IMG/VR virus record: IMGVR_UViG_3300030390_001877
Span: 62,001-126,000 of that record
Origin: a virus
DNA: 64,000 nucleotides
Direction: 5' to 3' (one strand)
Shown: piece after piece, positions 8,429 to 61,241 of the stretch
Layout of the letters: every line of letters starts with the position of its first letter
Position numbering within the stretch: position 1 is the stretch's first letter
Made by a program: the position numbers and the translations under genes
Notes under the pieces: model-generated
Told to the model about the DNA's origin: nothing
The model's input: the letters and a program-made list of their open reading frames with translations, nothing else
Databases searched by the model: none

Positions 8429-8460
8429 AAAAAAGCCCCACCCGAAAGTGGGTAGGGCTT
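8429..8460 (-). terminator. Terminator after major capsid gene
   Basis: The minus strand reads AAGCCCTACCC, a short loop, GGGTGGGGCTT, then T's: an 11-bp stem with one G.U pair and a U-tract. It lies 21 nt after the capsid stop and would keep capsid mRNA more abundant than the downstream structural genes. Confidence 0.9.
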
Positions 8461-13728: not shown

Positions 13729-15816
13729 TTAAAACAAACGTTTTGAAGATTGTTTGCCCATAGAGGATTTCATCTTAGAGTATTGTGTGTTGCCCGAGGA
13801 TAATTGTGGGATGGCTACTGCTTTGTGGATTTTGGAAGCGCTGAGGTAATTAAAAGCTGAAGCTACTGTATCTCCGAAATCATCCTTTTTAGTTGTAGTG
13901 GATCTTTCTCCATCAAAACCTTCAAGTTGTTTCATTATGTAATTATAAGTTTTCTCTGAGAAAGTATTCTTAGCTATTTTAATAAGTCCATTCTCTGCTG
14001 CTGTTGCGAAGGGGAGAAATTTAGTTAGCTTATTTTTATTGATAGGGCAAGGGTCTTTCTTGAAAATAAAACCGTGTTCATTGAAGAATTTAGCTTGTTG
14101 ATTCCAAAGAGATTTTCCTGCGGCAGCAGGGTCCTGAGGCGCTACGATGTAAACTTCATCACCGTCATACTCTGCCTGTTTAATCATTGTATTATCCCTA
14201 TCACCAGACCTCTTATATATCGCCCCTTGTATATCATCTACTTCATCGTAAAAATCTTCATGATATTCACCTGCTAAAACATAATAACCGTCATGAGTCT
14301 TATACATCTTGATACAAGTTGTTGGATCAGGGTTTTTCTGCGAAGTTGTCCTTTCGGAAGCCCCGAAATCGTAAGCCCTAACAGCAAAAGCTTTAGAAGG
14401 TATCTTATCTATTTCCTGTAACCACTCCCTCTTAAAATACTTAGTCCCGAAAGCCATTTCAGCCCAACAACCGTGTAGTAGTTGTGCCCTGTCAATATCA
14501 TTAAGACCTTCTAAGAATGCGAGGTAGGATGGATTAATTTCCATCATGATCGGATTGTCGTATATAGTACCACTAACAAAAGAAAAGGATAGTATCTTAC
14601 CTTCCCATCTTTCCTTAGGAATTTCCAATCTAGTACCTAACTCTTCTCGTGAATTACCCCATATATACTCACCTGCTTCTTGTACAAAGTATCTGACTAC
14701 TCCATCTTTTTCTGGGTCAGGAAAACCTTCATCATCTAAGTACCATGAGATCATATCCTTTATCTCGTGCGAAGGAGAAGGGTTACAACTTATTACCATT
14801 CTTGAGAAGTGTTTAGAAGGGGATCTTAGTCGGGACATGAAGTACTCTATCTGTTCCCATTCGAATTGTGTCTATTGTTGTTCAAAGAAGTTCGTTACTC
14901 TTCTTCCGTCTATAAAGACTGCCTTATATCACTATAAGAGTTCAGACTATATCATCATCTACGTGAGATGCTGTGCGCTTCCACCCACTTAGGTGTACAG
15001 GTTTCATAATCCTTTCTAAAGGATCGTTTACCTTAGTCGTTGCACCTTCAAACTGATTACTCAGTAAGCTTGGCTCAGAATTGTCTTTCGTAAAAGAGTT
15101 TCTCTGAATTCACACAGTTATCGATATGTATCGCTACATAAAGGGGCACACTGTTTACCCTCATCTATACCAACAAATGTAAACTCTTGTCCCTGAGCAT
15201 CCATCTTTGACCTAGCTACGTTCTCTGCTTGCTGGTATTTTATTTTAGCACCATTAGGAAATACTACTTCCATCTTATGATCTCTTATTGCCTTAGGTTC
15301 AGAACCTTTAGGCATCTGTTCGTAAATTGCTCTGGCGTTAGGCCAAAGTCCCCCTAATAACTGCGGGTTTGTTCTACGGTACATGATGCAGTTTGTCTTA
15401 CCGTCATCTAAAAGCATTAGAGGGAGGTGATTTAGTATGGTACTTTTCCCAGATCCTGCCAATAAATCTCTCTGGGACAGTTTCGAGTTCGTTACACTCT
15501 TCCACAGTTTCCTGTGTTGTCGGATCATATCTTCTACTTATAAAAGTAGCCCTACGTTTCGAATTCACTTGAATCCTACTCTCAAAATGAGATGACCTCT
15601 ACACCCATGAATTTAATCATTCGGCTCGGTATTGGCATATGATATAACATATCACTTAGCTTCCACCGAATTAGCAGGGGAGTTTATGGTGTGACCACAG
15701 GAATTTTAAGCCCCACCTATTACTAGTATTTGAGTATCAGAAGCTCTTTTCAACATAAGAGCTTGCTTCTTACTTGCAGGAGAGAAAAAGGGTTTCTTTC
15801 CTTTCTGTTTTGTCAT
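13729..15816 (-). CDS. terL: Terminase large subunit, three exons split by two group I introns
   Basis: ATPase and nuclease motor that packages DNA. Exon 1 is 15816-15709 (36 codons, MTKQKGKKPFFSPASKKQ to VIGGA). Exon 2 is 15459-15157 (101 codons, AGSGKST to FVGIDEG). Exon 3 is 14871-13729 (380 codons, TQFEWEQIEYFMSRLRS to the stop). Joined, they give 517 residues in one frame, normal for TerL. Walker A (GGAAGSGKS) is rebuilt only when exons 1 and 2 join; Walker B is VGIDE. The nuclease region includes RAYDFGASE and a late FGDTVASAF. Exon ends in T and intron ends in G fit the group I rule at both introns. Exon 1's ATG overlaps the stop of the HNH gene. Confidence 0.92.
14872..15156 (-). ncRNA. 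Group I intron 2 of terminase gene (285 nt)
   Basis: The exon GGGT pairs with intron GCCC (P1 with U.G at the splice site). The core has TGTGTGAATTC, GACAATTCTGAGCC, AACGACTAAGG and GATATAGTCTGAAC. GACTA can pair with TAGTC as P7. It is closely related to the tape-measure intron, with a compensatory helix change. The intron ends AACAACAATAG. No endonuclease reading frame fits inside it. Removal joins DEG to TQFEW in frame. Confidence 0.9.
15460..15708 (-). ncRNA. Group I intron 1 of terminase gene (249 nt)
   Basis: Begins TAAAATTCC after exon ...GGTGGGGCT and ends ATTTATTG before GCAGGATCT. The core has CTAATTCGGTGGAAGC and CAATACCGAGCC. GGTCAT pairs with ATGATCC with one bulge, as in P7. 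It differs in peripheral parts from the other two introns, so it is a separate insertion or has diverged. No internal gene. It interrupts the P-loop codons between GGA and AGSGKS. The P1 pairing is weaker by eye than in the other two. Confidence 0.82.
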
Positions 15817-16622
15817 TTTATAAAATCCTCGTGTTTTTCTTTAAATATTTTCAATGCTTCAGGTTGTCTACTGCCTTTGCAAAATCTGCTTATCATAGAT
15901 TCTGCTATACCTCGTTCAGATGAAATAAATTTCAAAGATTTTTTGTTTATTAATCTATCTTCTATAATATCAACAACATCATGTAGACCTAGTTTAGTTG
16001 TAGGATGTTTTCTTTTTATGAAATCTCCTTTCTTGAAACCTGTTATACTAGATAACCTTCTACCTGACAACCCATCCCATAGTGTATCTGGACTGGATAC
16101 AGTTAAGCCTAGATTTTCACATATACATTTATACTCTAATCCTGCATTAAAAAGAAATCCTACATATTTCCATTCATACTTGGTAAGGGAACTCAAGGTC
16201 TTCTCTTTTCCATAACTTTCTGCATAATATTTTATAGTATTAAACTCTGAGGTAACCCACTGTAAATTGTACCACATATTATTATCTTTTGTATTATCTA
16301 TATGGTCTATTACTAAACAAGAATTTTCATCAGGAGTGTCCACTAAAAAATGTAAAGCTACTAACCTGTGTACCCTCCTGTGTTTGTATTCCCTATTGCC
16401 ATGGGACATAGCTACCTCTTTATAACCATCCTTATCTGTTTTAGGTTTAAGTATACGTTCTCTTACTTTCTTAACACCTTCTATTCTATGGCGATTAACC
16501 CAAGGAGTCTCTCTTTTCAAACTCTTAACTCTTCCATAATTACTTATCTGATATTTACCTTCAAAGTCTTGGATATCTTTCCATTCTTCCTTAACAGGGA
16601 ATGCTATGTTATTCCAAATCAT
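15813..16622 (-). CDS. NUMOD4/HNH homing endonuclease, free-standing
   Basis: 269 residues. The N-terminus EEWKDIQDFEGKYQISNYGRVKSLKR is a NUMOD4 domain. HRRVHRLVALHFL and VIDHIDNTKDNNMWYNLQWVT form the HNH nuclease. The C-terminal part (LTKYEWKYVGFLFNAGLEYKCI..., KSLKFISSERGIAESMISRF) looks like DNA-binding helix repeats. The stop TGA overlaps the start ATG of terminase exon 1, and it has its own promoter (16789-16817). It probably cuts a site in or near terL in intronless relatives and could mobilise the adjacent introns. Confidence 0.88.
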   Translation of the reverse strand: MIWNNIAFPVKEEWKDIQDFEGKYQISNYGRVKSLKRETPWVNRHRIEGVKKVRERILKPKTDKDGYKEVAMSHGNREYKHRRVHRLVALHFLVDTPDENSCLVIDHIDNTKDNNMWYNLQWVTSEFNTIKYYAESYGKEKTLSSLTKYEWKYVGFLFNAGLEYKCICENLGLTVSSPDTLWDGLSGRRLSSITGFKKGDFIKRKHPTTKLGLHDVVDIIEDRLINKKSLKFISSERGIAESMISRFCKGSRQPEALKIFKEKHEDFIK

Positions 16623-17965: not shown

Positions 17966-18002
17966 AAAAAAGCCCTACGGCTACAATGAGCTTTCGGGCT
18001 TT
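17966..18002 (-). terminator. Terminator upstream of 17 kb operon promoter
   Basis: The minus strand reads AAAGCCC, a 20-nt loop region with further pairing, GGGCTTTTTT. It ends the transcript of the 18-19 kb genes just before the next promoter. Confidence 0.75.
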
Positions 18003-25829: not shown

Positions 25830-26173
25830 AATTCGTTCTCCATTAAAAGTTTCATTGCTAAAGGTATTAATCTCTCTTCATCTTGAGGTAAGAAACCTTT
25901 CAAATCATAATCACCTGCATAAACAATCCACGTTGATAAAAGTTTTTCTTCGTTTTCCCAAGATTTTATTTCTGCAGTGTTTCCTTTGAAGAAGAATCTA
26001 ACTGTTGGGTTCATGTGATCATTTTCTTCATCGTTGTCTAACATTTCACATAAAACTAACTCATCTTCTTTACGAACACCTAATTTATACAGACTGCACT
26101 CTTTCTTACAACCCCACACTTCTGCAAAGAACTTGTGACCATTAGGTAGGTGTCTAAGATTTGCGTCAAACAT
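25826..26173 (-). CDS. Unknown protein, 115 aa
   Basis: Start MFDANLRHLPNGHKFFAEVW chosen because AGGAG lies 7 nt before this ATG; an ATG 6 nt earlier is too close to the ribosome site. Mixed sequence with a WENEEKLLSTWIVYAGDYD segment. First gene behind the 26246-26274 promoter. Unknown. Confidence 0.58.
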   Translation of the reverse strand: MFDANLRHLPNGHKFFAEVWGCKKECSLYKLGVRKEDELVLCEMLDNDEENDHMNPTVRFFFKGNTAEIKSWENEEKLLSTWIVYAGDYDLKGFLPQDEERLIPLAMKLLMENEL

Positions 26174-26245
26174 ATTCATTCTCCTCAAAATATTAACTCA
26201 ACAAAAAGAACCTTTCAGAAACGAAAAATCCCTCCAATAGATATG

Positions 26246-26274
26246 AGTCTACGGGAAGGATTATTTGTTGTCAA
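26246..26274 (-). promoter_or_regulatory. Promoter with 9-bp flanking dyad
   Basis: TTGACA, 17 bp, TAGACT on the minus strand. AATCCTTCC before and GGAGGGATT after the -10 box pair over 9 bp (one G.T), with the expected start site in the loop. Confidence 0.8.
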
Positions 26275-31493: not shown

Positions 31494-32357
31494 ATGGCAT
31501 CGTCCGAAGAATTAGAGAGTATCGAGTGGGCTTCTACACTTGAATACGATAACACAGTAGATGAAGCAAATAGAACAAATATAATACCTGAAATAAAAAC
31601 AAGCGGATTAAAAGATAACCAACCTCTCCCCCGACAATGGCTTAATCAGCAATTCTATAATATTTGGCAAGTATGTCTATCCTTTCAATCAGACTTTGAT
31701 GCTTTGGAGATTGATTTATCTGACTTACAATCGCAAATAGATGCTAACAAAGATTCTATTACTACGAACAAATCCGAACAAAATGTTGTTAATAATGATT
31801 TACAATCTCAGATAGACGCTTTGGAATTAATTATTCTTGAGAAGATTTTCTCTGTCGGTAGTACTTGGAATACTAAAACAGAAGAAGACCCTGCCGTTAG
31901 GTTTGGTTTCGGGACTTGGGTGAAGCTGGATGGAAGATTTATAGCAGGTAGTAGTGAAACTGACGCTGCATTCCAACCTCTAGGAGCTTTAGGTGGTAAT
32001 AAGAATCACACCCATACAGACAATTTCTCTGTAGCCTCTCATACATTGACAGAAGCAGAAGTACCTACTTATGTCCATAATCATGAATTCAGAGATAGAT
32101 ATCATGCAGAAGATAGTACATCCTCTGATATGGTACAAGCTACTAATAAAGAAAATATGCCAGCAGGTTACAACGGTAACGCAGGTAGTGGGGTTAGTGA
32201 TTTAGACAATAACCAATGGTTATATTATGATACTAACACAGAAAATGCTACTTTTGGCGGGGGTGGTGGTCACTCGCACGTGTTAAATGGTAATATCGAT
32301 TCTGCAAGTAACCTACCTCCTTATGCAGTTTTCCACGTTTGGGAGCGTATATCTTAA
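31494..32357 (+). CDS. Tail fibre protein with collar-like C-terminal tip
   Basis: 287 residues. The N-terminal part has LPRQWLNQQFYNIWQ (a virion-attachment motif seen in many fibres) and two DLQSQIDA coiled-coil repeats. From about residue 120, FSVGSTWNTKTEEDPAVRFG leads into a tip with GGNKNHTHTDNF, a second His-rich GGGHSHV, and ends PPYAVFHVWERIS. These GxHxH and PPY(A)xxxxW motifs are those of short tail fibre receptor-binding tips where His residues hold metal. It probably binds the host surface. Confidence 0.8.
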   Translation: MASSEELESIEWASTLEYDNTVDEANRTNIIPEIKTSGLKDNQPLPRQWLNQQFYNIWQVCLSFQSDFDALEIDLSDLQSQIDANKDSITTNKSEQNVVNNDLQSQIDALELIILEKIFSVGSTWNTKTEEDPAVRFGFGTWVKLDGRFIAGSSETDAAFQPLGALGGNKNHTHTDNFSVASHTLTEAEVPTYVHNHEFRDRYHAEDSTSSDMVQATNKENMPAGYNGNAGSGVSDLDNNQWLYYDTNTENATFGGGGGHSHVLNGNIDSASNLPPYAVFHVWERIS

Positions 32358-32406
32358 TGGGTAAAATTATTAGAAGAATTTATAACAACAACAAAGGAAT
32401 TTTAAG

Positions 32407-34413
32407 ATGTCAATAATTTTAAGTGATGTTTATACAGGAAGGGTTGATACGACAGACCCTAATTATCCAAACGGTAAACCTCGTAACAAAGTGGGTGCTG
32501 TAGATGGGACAGGTACTCCTTATGAAGAGAAATACTTTCAGGATATAAGTGGTGCTTTCCAAGCTTTACTTGTCGAAGGAGGTATTACTGCATCAGGTAA
32601 CCCTGATAACGCTAATGTTTCTGATATACGTGATGCTATCCTGAAGATGATCCGAAAACCCTTAGTTTTGAAGGTGTTTCAATCCCCTACAGATGGTTTG
32701 ACGGAGATTAACACGCGCACCTTGCTTGGTGGTGAGGTGTATGAAATACGAAAAGTTAGTGATAACAGCTTTGCTACTATTTACAGTGATAAAGAGGGTT
32801 TAAACCCAATCACACAAGACGGCACGAGTAATGTTTCAGGTAGTGATGGGGTTGTTGAGTTTTATATTGCCGATGGGGATTATTACGTTGACGTTGGAGT
32901 TGTTTCAAAATCTTTTAGTGTTGGTCACGCTTCGGACTTGTCCTCTATTTATATATTTAATACTGTTGAAGGTTTTAAATCCAGCAAGATTGAATTTCCA
33001 GACGGTAAAACTATTCACATAAAAGAGCGTGATTCTGATTTCATCAAGATAACAGGAACCTCTACAGCTAACAATTTTAGCGTAATTGCTAGTAACGAAA
33101 TAGACCAGAGTGTAGAGTATGTACCAAATTTAGGGGTAGCTAGTGTTTACGGTTTAGGCGCTACAGCAGCGGCAGCTAATTTTGCTCAATCTAATTACAG
33201 CGCCATAGATTTTGGTAATTACGAGTACACTACAACCGAAAAAATATCAATATCGAATGGGGTAGCTATCCACTCTCAGGGCGCTAAGATTTTGAAAAAT
33301 TATGACGGTATAGGCATTGAGTTTACCAATCAATCTGCAACAGTAGATGTATTTGGTCGATTGGATGTCATAGGTTTTGGTGATTTTGCGGGTAATGGTT
33401 TGGTTGAGTCAGTATCTCCACTAGCTCACGGCATAAGCATAAAAAGTAGTCGCGTAAGAGTTCATGGGGCACTTTGGTCGTATAATCATGTGGGTGATGC
33501 TGTTAACTTTGACTCTGATAACCACGGCAACTCAAACAAGTCTGACTTTAATGAGTTGAGAGGGAACTCATCAAACGGGTATGGTATACGGTGTACAGGA
33601 ACGAGTGATGATACGTCCGTTTGGCGTATTGGTTTTTACGCACAGGGAAACTTTAAATCGGGCTTTTCCACATCATCTGATTTTATGGGGCGCAACTGGA
33701 ATGGTTTAATTTATAGTGAAAGCAATTGCAACGACACAACATCTACAGAGGTGGACATTGAAAAGTTGCGCGAGTCTGACTTGGTGATATATGCAGAAGC
33801 AGGTGTTGGTTCTTTGGAGGTTATGCTGGGTGAAAACACCAGTAACTTAGAGATTACAAGTCTGCGGTCTAATCTTGATAGTGACAACTCTCTGGCTCAA
33901 AATAACAGATGGAAAAGAGGCTCGCTAGCTGTTAACCCAGGGGTTTCTGGTGGTTCTAGAGTTGGTGAGGTGGGTGGTTTTAAGTTCGGAAGAGCTAGGG
34001 GTGGGAATGGTGGCGAGGGGGTGAAGGTTCCCATGAAGGGTTCGGACTCAACATTTGGACATTTTGTGGCAGTAAACAGCCAATCATCCCCATTTACCCC
34101 CTATCTAGGATTTGAGACAGAGAATCTATCATCGTTTATCAGGGTGGGGGACCAAGATTTTAGAGTTAATTCTAACGGTGATGACTTTATACACAAGACA
34201 GAGACGGACTTCGAGATAGGGACAACTAATACGGCTTACAAAACCAAAGTCAATATGTTTGGTAATGTAGCTATCTTTGTAAGGTCATCAAGTCCAGAGG
34301 GGCAGCAACCCGCTTCAACTGGGTCTATATGCTTGGTAAATGGTGGTGGGGCTGGCACGTCATTCTATGTCAAAGAATCTGGAACAGGGAGCACGGGGTG
34401 GGTTGGTAAATAA
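32407..34413 (+). CDS. Tail spike/fibre with beta-helix, mosaic composition
   Basis: 668 residues. The N-terminal 190 (MSIILSDVYTGRVDTTDPNY) look phage-native and include a fibre attachment region. The rest has the periodic short strands of a right-handed beta-helix (SISNGVAIHSQGAKIL, IGIEFTNQSATVDVFGRLDV, GYGIRCTGTSDDTSVWRIG), with a C-terminal GTSFYVKESGTGSTGWVG cap typical of many spikes. It may recognise or cleave surface glycan; no catalytic residues assigned. GC content and G-rich runs rise sharply after about 33.0 kb, a sign of recent exchange. Confidence 0.75.
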   Translation: MSIILSDVYTGRVDTTDPNYPNGKPRNKVGAVDGTGTPYEEKYFQDISGAFQALLVEGGITASGNPDNANVSDIRDAILKMIRKPLVLKVFQSPTDGLTEINTRTLLGGEVYEIRKVSDNSFATIYSDKEGLNPITQDGTSNVSGSDGVVEFYIADGDYYVDVGVVSKSFSVGHASDLSSIYIFNTVEGFKSSKIEFPDGKTIHIKERDSDFIKITGTSTANNFSVIASNEIDQSVEYVPNLGVASVYGLGATAAAANFAQSNYSAIDFGNYEYTTTEKISISNGVAIHSQGAKILKNYDGIGIEFTNQSATVDVFGRLDVIGFGDFAGNGLVESVSPLAHGISIKSSRVRVHGALWSYNHVGDAVNFDSDNHGNSNKSDFNELRGNSSNGYGIRCTGTSDDTSVWRIGFYAQGNFKSGFSTSSDFMGRNWNGLIYSESNCNDTTSTEVDIEKLRESDLVIYAEAGVGSLEVMLGENTSNLEITSLRSNLDSDNSLAQNNRWKRGSLAVNPGVSGGSRVGEVGGFKFGRARGGNGGEGVKVPMKGSDSTFGHFVAVNSQSSPFTPYLGFETENLSSFIRVGDQDFRVNSNGDDFIHKTETDFEIGTTNTAYKTKVNMFGNVAIFVRSSSPEGQQPASTGSICLVNGGGAGTSFYVKESGTGSTGWVGK

Positions 34414-34732: not shown

Positions 34733-34761
34733 TTGACACAACCGCAAAAACAAACTAAGCT
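34733..34761 (+). promoter_or_regulatory. Candidate promoter overlapping hairpin
   Basis: TTGACA, 17 bp, TAAGCT. The -35 is perfect and the -10 weak. The left hairpin arm starts at the second base of the -10 box, and the expected start falls in the hairpin loop. Confidence 0.5.
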
Positions 34762-34793
34762 CTCCCATATTAATTTATGAGGAGAGCTTTTTT
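34757..34793 (+). terminator. Terminator-like hairpin that contains the next gene's ribosome site
   Basis: AAGCTCTCC, a 15-nt loop, GGAGAGCTT, then six T's directly before ATG. It is a perfect 9-bp stem. The right arm holds GGAGAG, the ribosome site of the gene at 34794. RNA read through from the spike gene would fold and stop or hide the ribosome site; RNA started in the loop would not. Confidence 0.8.
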
Positions 34794-35138
34794 ATGCCTA
34801 AAATTCCTATGTTCACAACAGATAACCTTCATATAGACGAACGTATTCAAGTGGAACAACTTTCCGAGACTCTCGGAGAGGATGTCATTCAATATATAGA
34901 TTACTCTATTATCAAACAGAGAGCCTTTCTCGTAGCGTCTCTGGAACAATTTGAGGGAATGTATCACTATGATTCAGGAAAGCCCCTCAGGTATGGTGAC
35001 GGCTCTCTGTTAGCAAGTTTTGACTGTCAGCATAAAGAATATTTATTAAAAGTGACAATTAATGCTTTACAGAAGGATTTAGATGAACTAGACTCTTCTC
35101 TAATGTATGATTTACAACAAAGAGGAATTTTATTATGA
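34794..35138 (+). CDS. Unknown protein, 114 aa
   Basis: Starts MPKIPMFTTDNLHIDERIQV. Helical, acidic, with a C-terminal ALQKDLDELDSSLMYDLQQR. First gene of the rightward early operon; stop overlaps the next ATG. No family recognised. Confidence 0.6.
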   Translation: MPKIPMFTTDNLHIDERIQVEQLSETLGEDVIQYIDYSIIKQRAFLVASLEQFEGMYHYDSGKPLRYGDGSLLASFDCQHKEYLLKVTINALQKDLDELDSSLMYDLQQRGILL

Positions 35139-46221: not shown

Positions 46222-46250
46222 TTGACAAACAATCCACCTCTCTGTAATAT
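46222..46250 (+). promoter_or_regulatory. Promoter with 8-bp dyad around -10
   Basis: TTGACA, 17 bp, TAATAT. CCTCTCTG (end of spacer) and CAGAGAGG (after the expected start) form a perfect 8-bp inverted repeat; the -10 box and start site are in its loop. It drives the membrane genes and rdgC. Confidence 0.85.
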
Positions 46251-46344
46251 ACATCTTATCGCAGAGAGGATACCCTTAAAGGATAACACTTTCCCAAAAG
46301 GAATACGCTTGTCAGAAGATTAACATTTTAACAGGAGAATATTT

Positions 46345-47681: not shown

Positions 47682-47710
47682 TTGACAAACAGATGAGACT
47701 CTTGTAATAT
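47682..47710 (+). promoter_or_regulatory. Promoter for YccA-like gene
   Basis: TTGACA, 17 bp, TAATAT. GAGACTC and GGGTCTC pair (one T.G) around a 10-nt loop that contains the -10 box. Confidence 0.85.
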
Positions 47711-47745
47711 AGGGTCTCTTATTAAAAGTAAAAGGAAAATATTTA

Positions 47746-49333: not shown

Positions 49334-49359
49334 CCTCATCCATTGTGGGTGGGGTTTTT
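49334..49359 (+). terminator. Terminator after secreted-protein gene
   Basis: CCTCATCCA, TTG, TGGGTGGGG, then TTTTT. A 9-bp stem with two G.U pairs and a U-tract. Confidence 0.85.
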
Positions 49360-49373
49360 CTTTTATAAAAAGC

Positions 49374-49402
49374 TTGTATATTACGATAAGTAGTGTTATC
49401 AT
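49374..49402 (+). promoter_or_regulatory. Promoter for second secreted-protein gene
   Basis: TTGTAT, 17 bp, TATCAT. GATAA-GTAGTG-TTATC forms a dyad that ends in the -10 box. Confidence 0.6.
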
Positions 49403-49432
49403 AAAAGCTAATTTAAAGATAGGAGAATATTT

Positions 49433-57956: not shown

Positions 57957-60900
57957 ATGAATATTACTACAATAATAAAAAGTAACGGAGATGAAGTACC
58001 TTTTGACCCTAGTAAACTTAACCGCATGGCTGAGTGGGGTAATACTGTAGGTGTATGTTGGTCTGAGTTAGTGTTTGATGCCCTTAAAAAGGTAACTGAC
58101 AAATGTAAAACTAAAGACTTGCAACAAGCACTAATTGACGCTTGTGCCGAAAAACAAACTAAAGAACATATGGATATGGCAGGTAGGCTTTACTTAGGGT
58201 CTCTTTATAAAACTGTTCACGGAGGTTTTGAAACACGTCCTAATTTAACAGATTTCTACTATGATATGCTATCCAAAGGAGTATGGGAAAAGTTAAACTA
58301 TGACGACACTGAGTTAGAGTACTTAAACGATGTTTTAGATAATGATAAAGATTTGAATTACAAATTATCTACTATTAAACAGATCAGCATGAAGTATTCT
58401 AAGAAGTTTCAAGGTGAAGTTTGTGAGACACCTCAATATACTTTTATGGGTATAGCTATGAAAGCTATGGAAGCTCAACCTGAGGAACGTAGATTAGAAG
58501 ATGTAACCAAACTTTATACATATTTAAGCGATCTAAAGATTAATATGCCAACACCTTTCCTAGCAGGTTTACGGACTTCCTTTAAAGGTTTTGCTAGTTG
58601 TTGTGTTATTAAATCTGAGGATACAGCAGATTCTATAGAGAATTTAGTTCACGCAGCTTATAGATTCACTACTGCCTCAAGTGGAATTGGCTGTACATTA
58701 ACAACTAGGTCTGTAAAAGATTCTATCCGTATGCAGCCAAGTAAACATACAGGTAAGATACCTTATTATAGATATTTACAAGGAGCAGTTAAATCTACCA
58801 AACAAGAGGTTAGAGGTGGAGGTGGTACAGTTCACTTTACGGTATTAGACCCTGAAGTTGAAACTTTACTTAGATTGAAACACCCTACGACAGTAGAAGA
58901 CAGACGTATACGAGGTTTAGATTATTCTCTAGGGGCTACTAAGCTTTTAGCTGAGAAAGCTGCTTTAAAGAAAGAGTGGATGTTAGTTTCATACTACGAT
59001 TCACCTGAACTTTATGAAGCTCATTTTAAAGGTTATGATGAATTTAAAAAAGCTTATCAAGAGTATGAGAAAAGTAATTCTCCTAGGAAGTACGTAAATG
59101 CTTTTGACGTATTGAAATTATTCTTAACTCAACGTGGTGATACAGGAAGAGTTTACCACACTTGGTTAGATGAAATGAACACGCATACTTCTTTTAAAGA
59201 TCCTATTTATAGTAGTAATCTGTGTGTTGCACCTGAGACGCAGATTCTGACAGATAAAGGTTATCTAACAATTGCAGAATTGGAAGGTGAAACTGTTAAT
59301 GTGTGGAATGGTGAAGAATTCTCCGAAACTATTGTTCTTAAAACAGGTAAGGATCAAGAACTTGTAAAAGTTCTTACAGACAATGGAGAAGAATTAGAAT
59401 GCACCAAGTATCATAAATTTTACGTAAAAACTGGATACCACAAAGCAGGAATAAAGGAAGTGAAAGCTTTTGAATTACAACCAGAGGATAAGTTAATAAA
59501 GTGGGAGTTGCCAACCATCGAAGGAAATAAGGTGTTGCAATTCCCTTACGATAACGGTATTTTTTCCGCAGATGGTACGGAAGTTTTAAAAGCAGGAGAG
59601 AACCATAACCACCAACAAGTTATCCTGATGGATCAGAAATTGCAAACTGAAAGTAGATTATCTTGTAGGTATAGTAAAAGGTTAGATCAAAAGGCTACAC
59701 AGGGACGGATAGTACTTACTACAAACCTCTTACAAACTAAATACTTTGTCCCTAATGAAGAATATACTGTTGCTTCCCGTATGGACTGGTTGGCTGGGTA
59801 TTTAGACGGGGATGGTTGCTATACTAAAAGTGGTACAATACAAGCTGCAAGTGTAGAGAAGGATTTCCTGTTACGGATTAAGCGTATGTTGGATTGTAGT
59901 GGAGTATTTTCGTCAGTTAGATTCGGTAGAGAGGAAAAAGAAAGTACTATGCCACCTCGACACAATGGTACTGGAAAAGGACGAGTATGTTCTTGTAAAA
60001 CTCTCTGGGTACTTACCATTGCAAGTAAGGAGGTGGATAAGCTATTAGATTTAGGTTTGGTTACCGAAAGATTACCTCTTGTTCGGAGCATTACTGACAG
60101 AAGCTGTAACCATTTCGTGAAGGTACTAGATGTTATAGGCCAAGGCCGCAAAGCTGACACATTCTGTTTTACAGAAAAACAACGTGGAATGGGTATGTTC
60201 AACGGTATACTAACAGGCCAATGCCAAGAAATTTTCTTACCCACTAAAGGGTTTGAAAACATTGTAGATATGTACGATGCAACAAAAGGGGTAGAAGCAG
60301 GAGAAATAGCTTTATGTTTCCTAAGCTGTCTTGTTGCGGGACGTGTATCCGAAGAAGAGTACGAAGATGTAGCATATTATAGTCTACTTGCGGTTGATAA
60401 TGTTATAGATTTGATGGAATACCCTTTCCCTCAGGTAGAGAACACTGCTAAGGGTAGACGAAGTGTTGGTATAGGTATTACTAATCTGGCACACGACTTG
60501 GCTGTAAAAGGTTTAAGTTATTCTAGCTTAGAAGGTAAAAATTATATGCATAGGTTAGCTGAGATGCATAGTTATTATCTTCACAAGGCAAGTTTACGTT
60601 TAGCTAAAGAAAAAGGTAATTGTTCTCTGATAAATAGAACTAAATACCCTGATGGTTGGTTACCTATTGACACATACAACAAAAATGTTGATGGTGTTCA
60701 TACACAAGGTTTGCAGTTTGATTGGGAAGGTTTACGTAAAGGTATTATCGAGAACGGAGGAATTCGTAACTCTGTATTAGAAGCTACACCACCTGCAGAA
60801 AGTTCTTCTCAGGCTAGTGAAACTACTAATAGTTTATATCCTATACGAGAGTATTACACAACTAAGCGTTCTGGTAGTATAGTCAATATCTTTGCAGCAC

Positions 60901-61241
60901 CAGATATTGACAACCCAGTAATTAAAAGTAATTATGAACTAGCCTATGATGTTCCGTCTAAGGACATAATAGATTGTTATGCTATTTTCCAAAAATTCCA
61001 CGGACAAGGTATCAGTGGAGATCTTTACACGGATTATAGTAAGTACCCTAACGAGAAAGTTCCTCTGTCTGTTATGGTGGATTTATACTTTTATTGTGTT
61101 AAGATGGGTTTGAAAAGTTTGTATTACCAAAACAGTAAAGGTGGTATTAAAGAAGGGAGTAACGTACTGGATGATGTAACCTCTACTAAAATAGACAGTT
61201 TACCAGATGAAGAAGATGACTGTGAAAGTTGTAAAATGTAG
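57957..61241 (+). CDS. nrdA: Ribonucleotide reductase class I large subunit with intein
   Basis: 1094 residues; 761 after splicing, the usual size. The N-terminal ATP-cone starts NITTIIKSNGDEVPFDPSKL. FLAGLRTSFKGFASCCVIKS holds a redox Cys. SSNLC joined to QEIFLPTKG rebuilds the conserved N-x-C-x-E core (catalytic Cys) across the intein. TPPAESSSQASETTNSLYPI and the final DDCESCKM (C-x2-C tail) fit class Ia. It reduces NDPs to dNDPs with NrdB. The intein sits exactly at the catalytic cysteine. Confidence 0.93.
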   Translation: MNITTIIKSNGDEVPFDPSKLNRMAEWGNTVGVCWSELVFDALKKVTDKCKTKDLQQALIDACAEKQTKEHMDMAGRLYLGSLYKTVHGGFETRPNLTDFYYDMLSKGVWEKLNYDDTELEYLNDVLDNDKDLNYKLSTIKQISMKYSKKFQGEVCETPQYTFMGIAMKAMEAQPEERRLEDVTKLYTYLSDLKINMPTPFLAGLRTSFKGFASCCVIKSEDTADSIENLVHAAYRFTTASSGIGCTLTTRSVKDSIRMQPSKHTGKIPYYRYLQGAVKSTKQEVRGGGGTVHFTVLDPEVETLLRLKHPTTVEDRRIRGLDYSLGATKLLAEKAALKKEWMLVSYYDSPELYEAHFKGYDEFKKAYQEYEKSNSPRKYVNAFDVLKLFLTQRGDTGRVYHTWLDEMNTHTSFKDPIYSSNLCVAPETQILTDKGYLTIAELEGETVNVWNGEEFSETIVLKTGKDQELVKVLTDNGEELECTKYHKFYVKTGYHKAGIKEVKAFELQPEDKLIKWELPTIEGNKVLQFPYDNGIFSADGTEVLKAGENHNHQQVILMDQKLQTESRLSCRYSKRLDQKATQGRIVLTTNLLQTKYFVPNEEYTVASRMDWLAGYLDGDGCYTKSGTIQAASVEKDFLLRIKRMLDCSGVFSSVRFGREEKESTMPPRHNGTGKGRVCSCKTLWVLTIASKEVDKLLDLGLVTERLPLVRSITDRSCNHFVKVLDVIGQGRKADTFCFTEKQRGMGMFNGILTGQCQEIFLPTKGFENIVDMYDATKGVEAGEIALCFLSCLVAGRVSEEEYEDVAYYSLLAVDNVIDLMEYPFPQVENTAKGRRSVGIGITNLAHDLAVKGLSYSSLEGKNYMHRLAEMHSYYLHKASLRLAKEKGNCSLINRTKYPDGWLPIDTYNKNVDGVHTQGLQFDWEGLRKGIIENGGIRNSVLEATPPAESSSQASETTNSLYPIREYYTTKRSGSIVNIFAAPDIDNPVIKSNYELAYDVPSKDIIDCYAIFQKFHGQGISGDLYTDYSKYPNEKVPLSVMVDLYFYCVKMGLKSLYYQNSKGGIKEGSNVLDDVTSTKIDSLPDEEDDCESCKM
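59223..60221 (+). mobile_element. NrdA intein, 333 aa, with LAGLIDADG endonuclease
   Basis: Residues 423-755. It starts CVAPETQILTDKGYLTIAEL (block A), with a TKYHKFYVKTG block B-like TxxH. DWLAGYLDGDGCYTKSG is a LAGLIDADG motif. It ends ADTFCFTEKQRGMGMFNGIL then TGQ before Cys+1. The last intein residue is Gln rather than Asn, a variant known from some viral reductase inteins. Removal restores SSNL-CQEIF in NrdA. It probably homes into intein-free nrdA alleles. Confidence 0.92.

Follow-up and report, generated by a model that had tools for sequence, protein, structure and literature searches.

A predicted promoter nested within a predicted terminator hairpin that covers a ribosome site in a marine relative of Pseudoalteromonas phages H101 and J2-1

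Background

The locus considered here raises the question of whether one short stretch of phage DNA could both end one transcription unit and begin the next, while keeping RNA that leaks across the boundary from being translated. It lies in a window of 64,000 nucleotides (the whole stretch of DNA analysed, bases 62001-126000 of a viral record of 132,129 bp) belonging to a relative of Pseudoalteromonas phages H101 and J2-1. A preliminary description, made from the letters of this window, drew attention to the element at 34733-34793, which comes after a tail-fibre-like gene that ends at 34413 and before a run of rightward genes beginning at 34794 (Table 1). The tail genes upstream are the presumed source of read-through RNA.

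The first gene of the downstream run, here called gene 34794, has homologues in H101 (54% identity) and J2-1 (35%), and as the alignments begin at the same start, from the first residue, the start codon at 34794 is supported. Both homologues are unannotated in their records, at L002 5001-5333 (H101 102976-103308) and L003 7793-8215 (J2-1 14885-15307) respectively. No further relatives were found by a protein search of viral contigs or by a profile search of host genomes, a profile search of viral contigs returned H101 itself only, and a search with the ligase for further orthologous loci yielded J2-1 again and a short contig that falls short of the hairpin. Elsewhere in the window the large subunit of ribonucleotide reductase (57957-61241, + strand) seems to contain an intein that includes a LAGLIDADG endonuclease domain (in Pfam, LAGLIDADG_3 scored above its cut-off and Intein_splicing below its own), and an ORF near the terminase genes (15813-16622, - strand) resembles, by eye, a homing endonuclease of the HNH/NUMOD type.

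Table 1. Coordinates of the element, its neighbours and a second nested module, numbered along the window
Feature	Position	Strand	Basis or remark
Upstream tail genes	31494..34413	+	31494-32357 with Gp10_C domain; 32407-34413 tail-fibre-like
-35 element TTGACA (6/6 consensus)	34733..34738	+	Sequence; J2-1 and G001 have TAAGCT at exactly the same 17-nt distance, with differing spacers
-10 element TAAGCT, overlapping the left arm	34756..34761	+	Sequence; identical hexamer in the same place in J2-1 and G001
Left arm AAGCTCTCC, outer stem of terminator hairpin	34757..34765	+	Sequence and folding
Inner stem CATA/TATG, loop TTAATT, bulged A34780	34766..34780	+	Folding
Predicted transcription start, within inner stem/loop part	~34767-34769	+	Placed 6-8 nt past the -10
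Shine-Dalgarno AGGAG of gene 34794	34780..34784	+	Sequence; opening energies
Right arm GGAGAGCTT, pairing the Shine-Dalgarno in read-through RNA	34781..34789	+	Folding
T6 tract, at once terminator U-tract and spacer from Shine-Dalgarno to ATG	34788..34793	+	Sequence
Gene 34794, first of downstream run, 114 aa	34794..35138	+	No Pfam or PHROGs match
Second module of the window, TTGACA-17-TAGACT, hairpin AATCCTTCC..GGAGGGATT and TTT	26227..26274	-	Genome scan

Anatomy of the element

The whole layout reads AAGCTCTCC CATA ttaatt TATG a GGAGAGCTT, then TTTT ATG. The hairpin (34757-34789) begins one base into the -10 box and has a stem of 9 outer and 4 inner base pairs interrupted by one bulged A; it folds at -18.0 kcal/mol with a z-score of -6.2 (-5.4 with flanks included), a value that 0 of 200 shuffles equalled, and it is followed directly by six T, the arrangement of an intrinsic terminator. 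Sequence and fold thus bear out the preliminary description of a 9-bp hairpin with a T-run that begins inside a -10 box. The promoter hexamers are separated by 17 bp, within the 16-18 bp of sigma-70 promoters, and the -10 element matches TATAAT at three of its six positions (T-12, A-11 and T-7) and is without a TG extension. That the right arm would hold the ribosome site of gene 34794 was also correct: AGGAG stands 9 nt from the ATG and is the only Shine-Dalgarno (SD), inspection of the sequence ahead of the ATG finding no second such stretch. A search of Rfam gave no match above the gathering threshold, the single sub-threshold match being ES173 (23.3 bits against 90). A simple terminator scan did not pick up the hairpin because the gap between the outer arms, at 15 bases, exceeds the limit of 8 set by the scan, which was not relied on.

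Accessibility of the ribosome site

An RNA arriving from upstream is predicted to fold the hairpin and hide the SD, as had been proposed, the calculated cost of opening it being 19.3 kcal/mol, compared with 3.8 kcal/mol in RNAs starting at 34767-34770. A ranking of the 147 SD-bearing starts that were scored across the 132-kb genome, using 60 nt on each side of the start, placed the SD of gene 34794 first as the most buried (12.9, against 8.5 for the runner-up and a median of 2.0). The proposal that RNA started at about 34768 would leave translation open holds in part. Such RNA does lack the left arm, but its SD is predicted to pair weakly with a UUCCU inside gene 34794, so that 'open' is to be understood in a relative rather than a full sense.

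Conservation at the locus

The locus was compared in J2-1 (MF370964), H101 (KR534323) and a contig of 129,542 bp, G001 (locus L105). J2-1 has TTGACA-17-TAAGCT with the hairpin AAGCTCTTACCT..GGGTAAGAGCTTTTTT (14806-14837), and G001 has the same arrangement with a third promoter spacer, so the promoter layout is common to J2-1, G001 and the window phage although their spacers have diverged. The T6 tract and a perfect outer stem are present in J2-1, G001 and H101, and two pairs of that stem show compensatory change: at pair 8 the U-A of J2-1 and G001 stands against C-G in the window and H101, and at pair 9 the window has C-G and the other three have A-U. H101 has the hairpin without a nested promoter, a separate TTGACT/TATAAT-like promoter lying downstream of it.

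The ribosome-site layer has a different distribution. In J2-1 and G001 the SD of the gene lies at least 30 bases downstream of the hairpin and outside it, so hiding of the ribosome site at this locus is particular to the window phage; in J2-1 the calculated opening costs are about equal, 4.5 kcal/mol in read-through and 3.6 kcal/mol in promoter RNA. Comparison of these sequences thus favours a terminator with a nested promoter more strongly than it does concealment of the ribosome site. For the same reasons the preliminary suggestion that the hairpin silences only read-through RNA, which agrees with the geometry and logic of the element, would have to rest first on termination, with concealment of the SD as a second layer. 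The sharp separation of late fibre mRNA from early mRNA that was also suggested would be a hypothetical further consequence.

A possible origin for this layer may be read from the sequence past the hairpin. All three relatives have a tail of the form TTTTTT-NTT-RCCTAAAATTT, the start and first codons in the window (ATGCCTAAAATT) resemble it with one base missing, and in J2-1 the tail and a start ATGCCAAAAGT are both present. We infer from these repeats that a deletion between short repeats may have removed the old ribosome site, the terminator arm becoming the new one. Terminators of this phage group share a common tail past the T-tract, TTTTTT[AC]TT[AG]CCT[GA]AAAT or near it (for example window 17969-18002 and 8433-8460, - strand; L002 4862-4893; L003 7714-7745), and this sometimes runs straight into the TTGACA of the next promoter, with a start some 80 nt past that of the hairpin, as also at H101 121319 and J2-1 1124.

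Recurrence of candidate promoters within T-tailed hairpins

Whole genomes were scanned for T-tract hairpins, initially those of H101, J2-1 and the record containing the window, and later G001. In the first three, the predicted start of a perfect TTGACA-17-TAnnnT promoter falls within 7 of 53 hairpins; the adjoining 40 nt have no such start on either side, and the flanks taken to their full 200 nt have 8. G001, which is independent of the origin of the idea, gave 5 of 25, with none in 40 nt either side and 3 in the flanks. Pooled over the four genomes, promoter starts are by our own estimate, allowing about 36 nt per hairpin, roughly 12-fold denser inside hairpins than in flanks. TTGACA and TAnnnT are spaced by 16, 17 and 18 nt in 36, 109 and 16 cases respectively, an excess at 17 indicating that most of the 17-spaced sites are probably real promoters. 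Of these 109 sites, 17 are nested in a T-tailed hairpin at least as stable as -15 kcal/mol, against 2 of 285 TTGACA sites without that -10; the 17 include several orthologues and represent about 10 or more distinct loci. The second module of the window (Table 1) is of this kind: the left arm occupies the spacer and the -10 the loop, and the gene that probably starts at 26172 has an SD of its own downstream, outside the hairpin. Two further sites of the window (46222-46290 and 47682-47730, + strand) have the -10 of TTGACA-17-TAATAT between inverted repeats (CCTCTCTG/CAGAGAGG and GAGAC/GTCTC) and no strong T-tract, and these promoter hairpins may perhaps not be terminators.

No nested case was found in T5, T4, lambda, N4 or HTVC008M, some of which have few TTGACA promoters to test, and a set of mixed viral loci showed little enrichment (a promoter inside 7 of 238 hairpins, compared with 9 and 7 for the neighbouring bins of 40 nt); nesting therefore belongs to certain groups of phages. 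Given that the hairpin and TTGACA-17-TAAGCT are kept at the locus despite diverged spacers and that nesting is strongly enriched in this phage group, the overlap of hairpin and promoter at 34733-34793 is confirmed as real and more than chance.

The form with all three layers, in which the SD is also in the arm, recurs. H101 49344-49417 is an independent case, with TTGACA-17-TACAAT, the hairpin AATCCTCTTAG..CTGAGAGGATT (49370-49410), TTTATT and ATG, and SD opening costs of 13.9 and 2.8 kcal/mol in the longer and shorter RNA. Scanning viral contigs for TTGACA-17-TAnnnT with TTTTTTATG after it gave at least 116 distinct sites besides that of the window. Among the matches listed, 23 of 116 have arms around the start that pair with an energy of -12 kcal/mol or lower, whereas a control in which left and right halves were swapped between sites gave a mean of 2.0 and a maximum of 5; for listed sites with an SD before the T-tract the figures are 15 of 32 and, in the control, a mean of 2.3 and a maximum of 5. 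The three-layer form is thus present in at least about 15 unrelated viral contigs and, as some of these loci are flanked by sequence matching T4-like marine phages or T5-like phages, it seems to have arisen more than once. A second compact form was seen among the matches listed, in contigs L228, L230, L248, L300 and L302: a short G-rich/C-rich hairpin immediately adjoins TTGACA-17-TAnnnT and leads into T6-7 and ATG, without an SD ahead of the start codon and with the predicted RNA start inside the hairpin.

Comparison with known systems

The closest precedent is that of T4 genes e, soc, 49 and I-TevI, in which a long RNA hides the ribosome site and RNA from an internal late promoter frees it and is well translated (PMC3014915). 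As in those genes, upstream RNA would fold a hairpin over the SD and a promoter in or near the 5' strand would give RNA lacking that strand: the SD of gene 34794 lies in a helix in the long RNA, and the geometry fits an RNA without the 5' strand, from a start site that is predicted. The T4 genes differ in having a late promoter, with the long early RNA being the silenced one, and no terminator is described for them in the review (PMC3014915). Here the promoter is TTGACA-17-TAAGCT rather than TATAAATA, the hairpin is predicted to act as an intrinsic terminator as well, and it is RNA from the fibre genes that would be silenced. The element would therefore work like a T4 gene e-type ribosome site without being a member of that class, and the idea first proposed for it amounts to the T4 logic with another type of promoter and a terminator added.

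In the frd-ampC region of Escherichia coli the ampC attenuator is the frd terminator (Grundstrom and Jaurin 1982, cited in PMC6045580), so that there too, as far as the citing account describes it, the terminator of one unit shares sequence with the promoter region of the next. By that account the ampC promoter lies upstream of the entire terminator, and ampC RNA itself is therefore attenuated, whereas in the window the predicted start is within the hairpin and RNA begun there would be exempt. In the annotation of phage T5 (AY543070), terminators at the junctions between units stand immediately ahead of promoter boxes of 75 bases or overlap them slightly, but hairpin and promoter hexamers are side by side and none of 25 T5 hairpins has a nested promoter of the type searched for. 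H101 and J2-1 have a homologous hairpin before a homologous gene, and nested modules of their own elsewhere, differing in that J2-1 combines the nested promoter with a separate ribosome-binding site and in H101 both promoter and ribosome-binding site are separate at this locus. A literature search, of partial coverage, turned up no account of such nesting of promoters in terminators, and an earlier one may exist. Control of translation would follow T4 e, soc, 49 and I-TevI, and its fusion with a terminator is new as far as could be found.

Proposed mechanism and alternatives

The element is probably a self-sparing insulator and relay, which stops incoming RNA, restarts transcription and silences what leaks through. 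Polymerase arriving from the tail-fibre genes would transcribe the whole hairpin and, at whatever efficiency such a stem and U-tract confer, undergo intrinsic termination near 34790-34793. The nested sigma-70-type promoter, if active as its hexamers suggest, would start RNA near 34768, in the loop, and that RNA, being without the left arm, would be unable to terminate at the same U-tract. At the 34794 locus of the window phage, leak-through RNA would stay folded and be poorly translated, because the right arm doubles as the ribosome site, and promoter RNA would be translated. This reading draws together the anatomy, the thermodynamics, the conservation of hairpin and promoter spacing, and the recurrence of the nested design. 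Against it stand the 3/6 match of TAAGCT without TG, the absence of the nested promoter in H101, the lack of conservation of the ribosome-site layer at the locus and the predicted partial pairing of the SD of promoter RNA with the coding region; moreover, pressure for short intergenic regions could have laid a hairpin on a promoter without regulatory benefit.

It is unlikely that this is a plain intrinsic terminator between the fibre genes and the next unit, with TTGACA-17-TAAGCT an inactive look-alike and another promoter serving the downstream genes. H101 conforms to such a scheme, with its hairpin and separate downstream promoter, and TAAGCT is a poor -10, but the exact spacing has been retained in three phages whose spacers otherwise diverged, nesting is strongly enriched in the four genomes and the window phage has no room for another promoter between hairpin and ATG. 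It is very unlikely that the element serves chiefly to control translation, in the manner of T4 gene e, with termination weak or incidental. The extreme burial of this SD, the second such gene in H101, the many SD-in-arm modules among the viral contig matches listed and the T4 precedent (PMC3014915) all speak for it; however, J2-1, G001 and H101 keep T6 and outer stem where the SD lies outside the hairpin (and, in J2-1, is unhidden), so the conserved feature is the terminator.

Inverted repeats across a -10 are typical of operators, and the repeat might be a repressor or activator site rather than an RNA element, but no result points to a binding protein, and this highly improbable reading was rejected since the arms vary in sequence from locus to locus yet still pair and are followed by T-tracts, with compensatory changes within the locus. 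Another candidate, the N4-type virion-polymerase hairpin promoter, was set aside as the present hairpins are longer, lie on TTGACA promoters and end in T.

As to why a relay of this kind might be nested at all, RNA polymerase often stays on the DNA after intrinsic termination, diffuses and is able to begin again at a promoter close by (PMC6978380). A near-consensus promoter placed on the terminator might have been selected to capture enzyme released from the putative late genes, although we regard this as rather unlikely; restart would then be free of the upstream message, and two units would be coupled with their RNAs kept apart.

Significance

The arrangement gives a rule that can be searched in any phage genome: TTGACA-17-TAnnnT together with a hairpin whose left arm falls in the spacer or -10 and whose right arm comes after the start. 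If the proposed mechanism is true, it would show why annotation that calls promoters and terminators separately overlooks such sites, and the element would offer a compact natural insulator-promoter for circuit design. For the phages themselves, a single device of 50-60 bp, repeated at several unit boundaries, would stop, restart and translationally gate genes, and this would explain how phages that depend on host polymerase and have short intergenic gaps separate neighbouring programmes.
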